Shown in pieces: positions 45,070 to 48,466 of a stretch of DNA of 64,000 nt. The notes beneath the pieces were generated by a model. It worked only from the letters and a program-made list of their open reading frames with translations, was not told where the DNA came from and ran no database searches. The stretch is from positions 496,001 through 560,000 of the forward strand of contig LN554852.1 in the NCBI GenBank assembly GCA_000953735.1, given 5' to 3'. Position numbers and translations under genes: made by a program. This DNA is from Moritella viscosa (lineage in GTDB: Bacteria > Pseudomonadota > Gammaproteobacteria > Enterobacterales > Moritellaceae). Numbering within the stretch: position 1 is the first letter of the stretch; every line of letters begins with the position of its first letter.

Positions 45070-45747
45070 TTAGATATTAAAGTGTTTTTTGAGTAGCTGA
45101 TGCGTAAAGGCCTTTTTAAGATAGAAGCCACGCGGTCGTACCTGAATGATCTCTCCCTCGCTGCCATACGCCTTTGTACGGACCTTATTATTTGCTGCCT
45201 TAGGGCGAAGCTGTAAATATTTACCGTGACGTGCAGTGATCTGTTCTACCTGTCCAAGTGCGATCATATCCATCAGCTCTTCCCAATCTTCTTGTAATTG
45301 CATATTTTCAAGTGCATCGGGCTGCCATAGTAGAGGTGAGCCTACGATACGTTCTGCGATCGGAATATCGCGTTCACCGAGTACTGGTATCCATAGCACT
45401 TGTTTTAGCTTATTAGCCACATTACAGGTTGACCAAGTAACGCCGTGATTACCGGTTAAAGGGGCTACGCAGACGAAGGTTGTTTCAAGTGGTTTACCTT
45501 GTGTGTTAATTGGAATAGTTTTCAATTCTACCCCTAATTCAGGGAAATCTTGAATTGGTTTACTGCCCGCGGTTGCCCCAAGGTGCAGTTCTAAGAGTTG
45601 TCCAATCCAGCCTTTTTCTTTACGCAGATCACGGGGCACACTGAGTTGGTGTAATGTGGCTATTTGTTGCAAGTTGAATCCGGCAATGGCTTGTGCGCGA
45701 TCCATAAGCTCATTGATATCACGGGGTTCGTTAATTAGTGCAGGCAT
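45070..45747 (-). CDS. mutH: DNA mismatch repair endonuclease MutH
   Basis: Nicks the unmethylated strand at hemimethylated GATC sites once activated by MutS and MutL. The catalytic Asp67, Glu74 and Lys76 ([12 protein letters not shown]) are in place. 225 residues. mutS is also in this window and mutH implies Dam-directed repair in this organism. It is divergent from rppH, as in E. coli, but an insertion sequence now begins about 190 bp upstream of its start. Confidence 0.97.
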
Positions 45748-45923
45748 ATCAAGTTATTCTTATATCTCAAGGTTTCTACTAGCAGAATAACACTTTTAAA
45801 TCTAGCTGTTAACGGTCGTTTTTCATACAAAGTGAGATAAGGATCTTGTTTTTATGTTACGTAGATGTTTCAAGTGAACGGTTTGTTTTAAGTTGTTGTT
45901 TTAAATGGTTTTTTATTATCGTT

Positions 45924-45939
45924 ATGATGAGTGTGGATA
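45924..45939 (+). repeat. Left copy of the 16-bp target-site duplication
   Basis: ATGATGAGTGTGGATA, identical to 47432-47447 and directly repeated. It abuts the left end (TGTTAA) of the insertion sequence. Confidence 0.9.
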
Positions 45940-45966
45940 TGTTAACCCAATATAGTAATGTCACAT
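45940..45966 (+). repeat. Left terminal inverted repeat of the IS
   Basis: Starts TGTTAACCCAA and ends in the ATGTCACAT motif. Imperfect match to the complement of 47405-47431; a second ATGTCACAT is at 45982-45990. Confidence 0.85.
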
Positions 45967-46037
45967 TTCCCCAACTTAGAGATGTCACATTCTGATAGGA
46001 TCTGTTCCATTAATAATCCTCTTCAGAGCTATGTGTC

Positions 46038-47375
46038 ATGCTATTTGCTATGAGCCAAAAAGAATTAAATCGTGTTGATGTTATTCGTGACGTTTGTGAA
46101 AAGCGTTTAACCCAAGTAAATGCTTCAAATATCCTTAACTTAACGCGACGGCAGGTTCAGCGGTTAGTAAACAACTTTCGTAAAAATGGGGCGCAAGGGT
46201 TAGCCTCATTGAGAAGAGGAAAACCAAGTAATCGACAGTTTTCACCTGCGTTTAAACAAAATGCACTGCGTATTATCAAAGATAAATACGCAGATTTTGG
46301 CCCTACCTTTGCAAATGAAAAGCTACTCGAACAGCACGGTATTAAGCTTTCAGCAGAGACGTTACGTCACTGGATGATTGGTGAGGGCTTATGGAAATCC
46401 CGAGCAAAGCCTAAGAAAAAGACCTACCAGCCCAGGTATAGACGAGAATCTTTAGGTGAGCTTGTTCAGATTGATGGTTCACATCATGACTGGTTCGAAG
46501 GCCGCGCCGAAAAATGTTGTCTGCTGGTATTTATTGATGATGCCACCGGTAGATTAATGACATTACGCTTCAGTGAGGTAGAGTCAACATACGACTACAT
46601 GAATGCGACGCGAGAATATATTGAGCAACATGGAAAGCCAGTGGCTTTTTACAGTGACAAGCATTCCGTCTTTAGAATCAATAAGAAAGCGCCTCTTAGT
46701 GGTAATCAGATGACACAATACGGTCGTGCGTTGTATGAATTAAATATCGATTTAATTTGTGCTAACAGCTCTCAAGCTAAGGGGCGTGTTGAAAGGGCAA
46801 ACAAAACCCTGCAAGACCGGCTAATCAAAGAAATGCGACTTGCAGGTATTGATTCAATGGAGCAAGCGAACGCATGGCTGCCTATTTTTATTGAAGATTT
46901 CAATCACCGCTTTGGTCGAGCACCGCATAGTTTAGAAGAAGCACACCGCCTATTACGGGAAAGTTCAGAAGAGCTAGACGACATATTTGCGCGTCAAAAG
47001 ACCCGTAAGGTATCGAACGCGTTAACATTGCAATACGACAAAGTGGTTTACCTGATAGAGCCTACGGATGCGACAGCGCGTTTAGCAGGTAAGAACGTCA
47101 TGATATATGACTACCCGGATGGCACGTTGAGCATAAAGCATTGTGGTAAGGCATTGCCTTATCAAGTCTTCGATAAGCTGCGACAGGTGAATCAGGGGAC
47201 TGTTGTTGATAATAAACGGTTGGGAGCAGCGTTGTCTTTTGCTAAACGAAGTCGGGAAGAAAGAAATGACACGTTGGAGCGAACGAGAAGCGCGAAAACA
47301 TTCAGCCGAACAGCACAAAAAAGAGCACGACAAATCAATCCTATTTTACGCGAATCACTAGAACCGGATAAATAA
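46038..47375 (+). CDS. IS transposase, DDE superfamily
   Basis: A 445-residue transposase. Residues 5-120 hold a helix-turn-helix region (ASNILNLTRRQVQRLVNNFRKNG). The rve-type integrase core carries Asp146 (LVQIDGSHHDW), Asp207 (FYSDKHSVF) and Glu252 (GRVERANKTLQ), a plausible DDE triad. A C-terminal domain follows from about 320. It starts at the ATG at 46038 (AGAG 9 bases upstream); the in-frame ATG at 46050 (MSQKELNR) fits the usual family N-terminus and is a good alternative. The frame is intact, so the element may be active. Confidence 0.93.
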   Translation: MLFAMSQKELNRVDVIRDVCEKRLTQVNASNILNLTRRQVQRLVNNFRKNGAQGLASLRRGKPSNRQFSPAFKQNALRIIKDKYADFGPTFANEKLLEQHGIKLSAETLRHWMIGEGLWKSRAKPKKKTYQPRYRRESLGELVQIDGSHHDWFEGRAEKCCLLVFIDDATGRLMTLRFSEVESTYDYMNATREYIEQHGKPVAFYSDKHSVFRINKKAPLSGNQMTQYGRALYELNIDLICANSSQAKGRVERANKTLQDRLIKEMRLAGIDSMEQANAWLPIFIEDFNHRFGRAPHSLEEAHRLLRESSEELDDIFARQKTRKVSNALTLQYDKVVYLIEPTDATARLAGKNVMIYDYPDGTLSIKHCGKALPYQVFDKLRQVNQGTVVDNKRLGAALSFAKRSREERNDTLERTRSAKTFSRTAQKRARQINPILRESLEPDK

Positions 47376-47404
47376 CAAATGTGACATTTCTACTTTGGTA
47401 AACT

Positions 47405-47431
47405 ATGTGACATTTCTAACTTGCTTTTACA
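47405..47431 (-). repeat. Right terminal inverted repeat of the IS
   Basis: Read on the minus strand it begins TGTAAAAGCAAG and ends in ATGTCACAT, pairing with 45940-45966. The inner copy of the motif is at 47379-47387. Confidence 0.85.
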
Positions 47432-47447
47432 ATGATGAGTGTGGATA
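47432..47447 (+). repeat. Right copy of the 16-bp target-site duplication
   Basis: ATGATGAGTGTGGATA, identical to 45924-45939. Its last eight bases plus the next A form a consensus DnaA box. Confidence 0.9.
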
Positions 47448-47648
47448 ATTTCACCCTTTTTTTATTATGTTAAATGGTAATAATGTAAACACCTCACAAG
47501 GTTATCCACAGAAAAGGTGGATAACTTGCTATTTTGCCCCCTGCATTTGTTAATAAATATCGAAAGTAGCGATTAATAAGACTACTTATCTCGGTTTTTA
47601 TTACTTTTCCACACATGTAATGTGTATAACTATGCATATTGTGGATGA
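47440..47648. promoter_or_regulatory. DnaA-box cluster (possible DARS2 counterpart)
   Basis: Three perfect TTATNCACA boxes: 47440-47448 (minus), 47502-47510 (plus) and 47621-47629 (minus). Three one-mismatch boxes: 47516-47524 (minus), 47605-47613 (plus) and 47640-47648 (minus). The 47502 and 47516 boxes face each other 5 bp apart within the palindrome GTTATCCAC / GTGGATAAC (47501-47525). In E. coli the DnaA-reactivating site DARS2 lies, as I recall, in the same mutH-rppH (ygdP) gap. Function here is inferred from position and box density. Confidence 0.65.
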
Positions 47649-47959
47649 GGAGGGATATTATTGGCATACTGGTGTTTTATTAGTCAACTGAGCGTAAGGT
47701 AAATGCCAATACATTGGAATTAAAAGTAGAATTTTACTTTTCATCTCATGTTTCTTTTAAGCTATTTATCATACATGGTTCCATGTAAAGAAAGGGGAGT
47801 TGTTTTAACAAAGCCGCTTAGAAGTTCTAAATTAGAGTGAAATAGGCGGTATTTTGTCTTTGTAAATAGATCTTTGGTAAAACTGCAGGTGTAAATTTGC
47901 TGCTCATTGATTTATATGAAACAATCAAGTTAACTAAGTTCTACCCTTAAGGTGCTAAT

Positions 47960-48466
47960 GTGATTGATAGCGATGGCTATCGTCTTAATGTAGGCATCCT
48001 AATTTGTAATCGTGAAGGTCAAGTTTTATGGGCTAAACGTTGTGGGCAACATTCTTGGCAATTTCCGCAAGGTGGTGTAGATAATGGAGAGTCTGCAGAG
48101 CAAGCAATGTATCGAGAACTATATGAAGAAGTTGGACTCAAAGCGAAACATGTTTCGATTCTAGCCACTTCTAAAACATGGTTGAAATATAAATTACCAA
48201 AGCGATTAGTCAGATGGGATAGCAAACCAGTCTGCATTGGGCAAAAGCAAAAATGGTTTTTACTGCGTCTGGAAGCGGATGACAGTCAAATCGACTTCAA
48301 ATGCACAGGACACCCTGAATTTGATGATTGGCGTTGGGTCAGTTATTGGTATCCTGTACGTCAGGTTGTATCGTTTAAAAAAGACGTTTATCGTCGTGTT
48401 ATGAAAGAGTTTGCACCTGTGGCATTACCTTTTTTACGCAAAGACATTAAACGTAAACGACGTTAA
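47960..48466 (+). CDS. rppH: RNA pyrophosphohydrolase
   Basis: Nudix hydrolase that removes pyrophosphate from mRNA 5' ends, exposing them to RNase E. A perfect Nudix box spans residues 38-60 (Gly38, Glu44, Arg52, Glu53, Glu56, Glu57, Gly59). The [22 protein letters not shown] and [15 protein letters not shown] segments identify RppH. It is 168 residues, starting at GTG with TAAGGTG just upstream. It is divergent from mutH. ptsP, normally next, is absent. Confidence 0.97.

Follow-up and report, generated by a model that had tools for sequence, protein, structure and literature searches.

The window analysed here, a 64,000-nucleotide stretch of DNA that corresponds to C1:496001–560000 of a 5.09-Mb Moritella genome, contains a cluster of DnaA boxes in the intergenic region between mutH and rppH, which are encoded divergently on the minus and plus strands, respectively. 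This gap is interrupted by an insertion sequence that belongs to the ISNCY family, as judged from the match of its transposase to the curated family model and from the direct repeats flanking the element. With the insertion and its target duplication removed the gap measures 704 bp, in agreement with the value of about 704 bp given in an earlier, sequence-only reading of this DNA. That reading had also described how the element meets the first box, and this was found as described: the right target copy covers eight of the nine bases of the box at 47440, which stays whole, and the left copy gives ATATCCACA, with one mismatch. The coordinates of all features are compiled in Table 1.

Table 1. 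Features of the mutH–rppH gap and its borders (window coordinates; offsets in brackets are relative to box II)
Feature	Position	Strand	Basis and remarks
mutH	45070..45747	-	NCBIfam NF003458, 359.6 bits; left gap border
Predicted mutH promoter, TTAACA-17-TATTCT	45784..45812	-	Consensus scan; 28/29 columns invariant in 10 genomes
Predicted IHF-like site, TAAGTTGTTGTTT	45889..45901	+	One mismatch to TAANNNNTTGATW; 105 bp from box II once the insertion is taken out
Left 16-bp target copy, ATGATGAGTGTGGATA	45924..45939		Identical to right copy
Insertion sequence, ISNCY family	45940..47431	+	1,492 bp; ends and target duplication
ISNCY transposase, open frame of 445 aa	46038..47375	+	NF033594, 496 bits against a cut-off of 250
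Right 16-bp target copy, ATGATGAGTGTGGATA	47432..47447		Identical to left copy
DnaA box (-62), TTATCCACA	47440..47448	-	Overlaps target duplication, intact; mean column identity 0.98
DnaA box III, degenerate, CACCTCACA	47490..47498	+	CACA retained in 10/10 aligned genomes
DnaA box II, TTATCCACA	47502..47510	+	Perfect
DnaA box I, TTATCCACC	47516..47524	-	One mismatch; head-to-head with box II
Box-like TTATTAACA (+46)	47548..47556	-	Starts 32 bp past box I; 9/9 columns invariant in 10 genomes
DnaA box TTTTCCACA (+103)	47605..47613	+	9/9 columns invariant
DnaA box TTATACACA (+119)	47621..47629	-	Perfect; 119 bp past box II
DnaA box TCATCCACA	47640..47648	-	One mismatch; aligned across the genus
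rppH	47960..48466	+	NCBIfam NF001934, 320.7 bits; right gap border

Three perfect TTATNCACA boxes had been claimed and all three were recovered, at 47440 (-), 47502 (+) and 47621 (-), as was the palindrome at 47501–47525; one-mismatch boxes are likewise present, their number being four (47516, 47548, 47605 and 47640) and not the three first counted. The box at 47605 has no mismatch under the pattern TTWTNCACA. Counted over the whole window with one mismatch allowed, boxes are not enriched (89 observed against 97 expected), and because they occur at chance level the box count alone was dropped as evidence. Perfect boxes show a mild excess genome-wide (271, against 201 for the reversed pattern), and a simple Poisson estimate gives an expectation of just about 0.014 triples within 190 bp for the genome, so that the cluster is an unusual one. 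DARS2 serves to recharge DnaA, the initiator of replication. The boxes at 47490, 47502 and 47516 adopt the arrangement of a DARS2 core, III(+)-12-II(+)-14-I(-), with box I opposed to the other two and with box III carrying four mismatches in the window and two to four across the genus. The core of E. coli K-12 DARS2, deduced from the K-12 sequence and the deletion primers quoted in PMC4585315, consists of TTCTTCACA (+), CTATCCACA (+) 12 bp further on and TTATTCACC (-) after another 14 bp, and E. coli DARS1 has an identical layout when read on the opposite strand; equal box spacing in DARS1 and DARS2, with box I opposite to II and III, is stated in the portion of PMC5742627 consulted. The box at 47548 was tried as box III and rejected, since the primers quoted in PMC4585315 and the DARS1 sequence place box III 12 bp upstream of box II. 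This genome has only three inverted pairs at the 14-bp offset when a single mismatch is tolerated, namely here, upstream of uvrB and at C1:1407760. A second, weaker triple that includes the +119 box (3, 2 and 0 mismatches; +104/+105) can be read in G000 (the genome of the window), G004, G009 and G006, and was left uncounted as its middle box is below the cut-off.

The transposase has three full-length matches in the genome at 100% identity (rounded), the window copy included, and a 16-bp duplication also flanks the copy near C1:3396901. Given two further copies at this identity, one of them with its 16-bp duplication, the insertion looks like a recent event. The left flanks of the other two full-length copies (L012 and L013) resemble an IS end and are adjoined by related transposase matches, and no right IS end was recovered for L013; the element may have a preference for IS-end-like targets. 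An effect of the insertion on mutH expression, raised as a possibility by the sequence-only reading, is less likely, since the element leaves the predicted mutH promoter intact, 127 bp away in a nearly invariant block; the consensus scan behind this prediction gave a total near the shuffled mean (9 against 6.5).

The genus was sampled with 11 Moritella genomes, ten of which were aligned over the gap, G010 being left out. The triplet is retained in 9 of the 10 other genus genomes. Mean column identity reaches 0.96–1.0 in boxes II and I and in those at -62, +46, +103 and +119, and 0.88 in box III, whose fifth base (free in the DnaA-box consensus) is variable and whose CACA is constant. Four spacers have identities of 0.61–0.71 and four other unnamed stretches 0.81–0.88, so conservation extends beyond the boxes; the unnamed stretches from -52 to -14 and from -180 to -126 are at 0.88, equal to the IHF-like block. 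In G010 the gap is 375 bp long and the triplet is absent, with the other two inverted pairs still present. Comparison of this gap (L056) with that of G006 shows about 328 bp missing, including the IHF-like site and the triplet, and a slippage deletion is likely from the short TTTTCC repeat seen by eye at the ends. Six genus genomes (L057 and L059–L063) have a gene of 470 aa between the cluster and rppH, and G007 and G008 an extra open frame of 333–334 aa in the same place. Matches above cut-off to the models of IHF alpha (TIGR00987) and Fis (NF001659) were found in all 11 genomes.

The survey was then extended over the order, where mutH was detected in 286 of 295 genomes. We fetched 59 distinct gaps, hand-picked for family coverage among the matches listed and thus not a random sample, and added 80 named mutH loci, with four named Moritella loci left out of the order-wide count. 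Six fetched gaps were dropped because rppH was absent from the stretch (five from f27 without a triplet and one from f8 with one), and addition of E. coli K-12 gave 130 gaps, of which 83 remained after deduplication by shared 11-mers. The 12/14 triplet is present in 78 of the 83 gaps, compared with 1 of 830 shuffles, and the five gaps without it are f6 gaps of just 110–378 bp. Other box geometries mostly occur in 0–12 gaps; the higher counts of 10/14 (42 gaps) and 14/14 (35 gaps) we attribute to the two-base period of CACA under the loose limit on box III. Opposed boxes at the 14-bp offset recur in 74 of the 83 gaps, which also argues against the suggestion that the palindrome, taken as 47499–47527, is a transcription terminator among incidental boxes: a terminator scan does flag a stem of 11 pairs there, but its tail GCTATTTTGC is T-poor and terminator-like sites are not above shuffles (1 against 1.6), so that we regard this as very improbable.

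Two triplets more than 100 bp apart were found in 22 of the 83 gaps, 21 of them with a separation of 266–355 bp, and in none of 830 shuffles; the remaining gap, f21_G238, has a separation of 218 bp and does not hold the usual pair. Under looser limits 76 gaps have an rppH-side triplet (hand-set in four of the gaps), 45 have a mutH-side one and 43 have both, and in f16_G101 and f18_G129 a weakened rppH-side triplet that misses the cut-off is visible. Eleven f21 gaps have the rppH-side triplet only and are similar to the named Photobacterium gaps, and from these sequences we infer that f21 represents Vibrionaceae; one named Photobacterium (L227) has both triplets. A minus-strand box with up to one mismatch lies 32–33 bp past box I in the rppH-side cores, at +46 in 43 of 76 and at +47 in 9 of 76; a tally that forced the 32-bp spacing was not used as evidence for it. 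The sequence of the spacer between box I and the +46 box is variable in these cores. DARS2, as predicted from the box patterns, is often a tandem pair made of the canonical rppH-side core and a mutH-side core. Neither a second triplet nor an insertion sequence in DARS2 is mentioned in the text consulted of open-licence PMC papers.

The order-wide pattern also bears on whether the cluster simply serves for DnaA titration, or for transcriptional control of mutH or rppH, with no nucleotide exchange involved. Several strong boxes placed close together between divergent genes would suit such a role, and datA, according to the text of PMC5742627, is an example of a box cluster with IHF; against it, the DARS geometry is retained across the order while several spacers drift, and the cluster is kept in the six genus genomes despite the 470-aa gene that separates it from rppH. 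We consider this role improbable. The claim of the sequence-only reading that the cluster is the counterpart of E. coli DARS2 is, on the other hand, well supported by the gap, the gene order, the III-12-II-14-I geometry and the conservation in IS-free members of the genus, and on this comparison of box geometry, conservation and synteny the mutH–rppH gap is very probably the DARS2 locus of Moritella.

The identity of the locus stands, and what has to be amended is the position of the triplet within it. Across the order, rppH-side triplets lie 140–256 bp from rppH and 417–607 bp from mutH (5–95% ranges), and mutH-side triplets 458–707 bp from rppH and 105–318 bp from mutH. The Moritella triplet is found 455–458 bp from rppH in the four short gaps, about 2.0–3.5 kb from it in the six genomes with the extra gene, and 245–247 bp from mutH, and so occupies the mutH-side position and not the canonical one at 140–256 bp from rppH. 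No rppH-side triplet was found in the ten Moritella gaps scanned, where the best triple more than 200 bp past box II has 7–11 mismatches. Box II is followed by a minus-strand box at a distance of 119 bp, or of 118 bp in certain species, an arrangement shared with E. coli and many others. Scored by log-odds over 35 bp (in-sample), the Moritella triplet gives values between 0.8 and 5.3 in nine genomes and a value of -3.7 in the tenth, against medians of 13.9 (10–90% range 2.5 to 16.7) for rppH-side and -10.5 (-16.3 to -6.3) for mutH-side triplets, so that eight of the ten fall towards the bottom of the rppH-side range and the mutH-side range contains none of them. In the +46 zone seven of the ten are rppH-like and the remaining three are shifted by one base, whereas the +119 zone is mutH-like in nine, six of them scoring below -5. 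Assignment of the triplet to a single class by sequence thus failed, as the zones and the distances conflict, and we conclude that it is mutH-side by position and appears hybrid by sequence. Such a hybrid could have arisen via gene conversion, or an rppH-side core could have been shifted by two compensating indels.

IHF sites were scanned for with the consensus TAANNNNTTGATW as given in the text of PMC8682772, with one mismatch allowed, and Fis sites with the exact consensus GNNYANNNNNTRNNC. Of these two kinds of site, both named in the sequence-only reading, an IHF-like match was found at 45889–45901 (+), and exact Fis consensus sites are absent from the G000 gap. About 1.5 one-mismatch IHF matches are expected by chance per 700 bp. 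The match recurs at -105/-106 in eight of the ten Moritella genomes (G004 and G005 fail the one-mismatch cut), and its block has a mean column identity of 0.88 against 0.64 and 0.61 in the spacers on either side. Across the order, one-mismatch matches on the plus strand are most frequent between -110 and -90, counted from box II of the rppH-side triplet. Between -125 and -80, plus-strand matches precede 28 of 76 rppH-side and 15 of 45 mutH-side triplets; the corresponding minus-strand counts are 3 and 1, and 48 of 76 and 30 of 45 triplets have no match at this threshold. The peak at about 95–110 bp on one strand is common to both triplet types and present in a minority of gaps. The commonest offsets elsewhere are -99 and -108/-109, and the Moritella offset of -105 falls between them. 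In E. coli the matches fall at -99 (+) and -83 (-) with 3 bp between them, which is the spacing described for IBS1 and IBS2 of E. coli DARS2 in the text of PMC4245941. A second triplet with an IHF-like site of its own would help to explain the well-kept boxes outside the E. coli core.

The insertion sequence enters at -70 to -55 and, with 1,508 bp inserted in total, increases the distance between the IHF-like site and the triplet from 105 to 1,613 bp. The right end of the element offers only a two-mismatch IHF site, at -169 and on the opposite strand. Shifts of 5 or 10 bp in the position of its IHF sites lowered the activity of E. coli DARS2 in vitro, as reported in the sections of PMC4245941 drawn on here, and by analogy with this sensitivity IHF-dependent activation has probably been lost or much reduced in this genome. 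We judge it slightly better than an even chance that the insertion uncouples IHF from the triplet. An effect on DnaA recycling, suggested by the sequence-only reading, remains plausible, with the route now being separation of the triplet from a conserved IHF-like site. A reading in which the element lies outside the module was abandoned after the IHF survey. The insertion might instead be neutral in a genuine DARS2, with the true accessory sites on the rppH side and the IHF-like site due to chance or serving mutH. The boxes from -62 to +138 are indeed contiguous, with the triplet and everything on its rppH side in native register, and the IHF-like site is weak; yet its block is conserved between two variable spacers, and a matching position and strand recur in other families. 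Neutrality is accordingly the less likely outcome, although it deserves appreciable weight.

The other two inverted pairs of this genome are part of DARS-like sites. At C1:3240684 (L069) a DARS triplet lies upstream of uvrB, which is the position of DARS1, and a similar inverted pair is present in 10 of the 11 genus genomes, the uvrB linkage being seen in G000. At C1:1407760 (L066) a DARS-type triplet consists of taacacaca-TGG-TTATCCACA and a perfect opposed box, and has CACATGGTTATCCACAG in common with E. coli DARS1; 10 of the 11 genomes again contain such a perfect pair, accompanied by a similar box III, and the gene adjoining the site in G000 gives below-cut-off matches to rRNA methyltransferases. 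A speculated DARS3 is mentioned in the part of PMC4585315 consulted. In G003 both the uvrB-linked and the third site are absent at two mismatches. With oriC assumed to be at the start of C1, beside a gene judged by eye to be mnmG, the DARS2 site is located 543 kb from the origin, at about 0.21 of the replichore, and the uvrB-linked site would belong to the opposite arm, in keeping with E. coli, whose two DARS sites are likewise divided between the arms according to the text of PMC4585315.

In the E. coli scheme, as far as it is given in the portions of PMC10380432 and PMC5742627 used, DnaA-ADP bound head to head on boxes I and II frees ADP, box III assists, and IHF and Fis activate. By analogy, two DnaA-ADP molecules would bind boxes II and I of the Moritella site head to head and release ADP with the help of box III, and DNA bending by IHF, at a site about 100 bp towards mutH, would activate the complex. 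Binding of DnaA and of IHF, the exchange of nucleotide and the consequences of the insertion are all deduced from this analogy: the intact Moritella site would be expected to release ADP, and the allele with the insertion would retain the triplet and lose its control by IHF. The explanation as a whole, a DARS2 locus activated by IHF in which the insertion separates the IHF-like site from the triplet, is in our judgement reasonably probable. E. coli lacking DARS2 is viable in the account available from PMC4585315, and survival of strains with a damaged DARS2 is therefore expected. Two lesions found in Moritella, namely the insertion that parts the triplet from the IHF-like site and the deletion that removes them together, parallel in nature the IHF-site and core mutants made in the laboratory.

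A more tentative proposal, which we would put at somewhat under even, concerns the origin of the arrangement. Ancestral DARS2 may have been a tandem of complete modules, each with an IHF site followed about 100 bp on by a III-II-I triplet, the halves of which were kept, weakened or lost according to lineage. The mutH-side half would have decayed in E. coli, most sampled Vibrionaceae would have the rppH-side half only, and Moritella would rely on the mutH-side module, as the sole surveyed lineage without a visible rppH-side one. The insertion would then unhook IHF in the present genome, and the module would have been deleted in another Moritella, leaving DnaA recharging to DARS1 and the third, DARS1-like site. 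The proposal is weakened by the Moritella triplet sequence, which leans to the rppH-side class.

The DARS2 experiments drawn on here are all from E. coli, and the E. coli site is one of the closest known systems against which the Moritella locus can be set. The two have in common the gap, the gene order, the III-12-II-14-I triplet, a minus-strand box 119 bp past a TTATCCACA plus-strand box, a further box 32 bp past box I and a predicted IHF-like site about 100 bp to the mutH side. By our reading, boxes VI and V of E. coli are, respectively, the plus-strand box at position 189 and the minus-strand box at position 308 of the gap, the box at 47621 being the counterpart of the latter; boxes IV–VI are reported to be dispensable in E. 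coli (Kasho 2014, PMC4245941). The E. coli locus differs in that a distance of 180 bp separates its strong triplet from rppH and its mutH-side triplet is degenerate (box II perfect, box I with three mismatches), whereas the sole Moritella triplet is 455–458 bp from rppH in the short gaps and the locus is split by an insertion sequence in the present genome. E. coli DARS1 has the same triplet geometry at a different locus, the bioD–uvrB gap, and is active in vitro without added factors, as stated in the text seen of PMC5742627; Moritella has a uvrB-linked site of its own at the DARS1 position. The datA locus is also a DnaA-box cluster with IHF, but PMC5742627 describes datA as a promoter of the hydrolysis of ATP bound to DnaA, for the most part on head-to-tail oligomers, whereas the site in the window has an opposed pair. 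Conservation of DARS2 across gamma-proteobacteria is already reported in the parts of PMC4245941 and PMC8682772 consulted, the latter describing homologues in Vibrio cholerae, Shewanella denitrificans and others as related gamma-proteobacteria with a conserved core, FBS2-3 and box V; the text consulted makes no mention of a second triplet.
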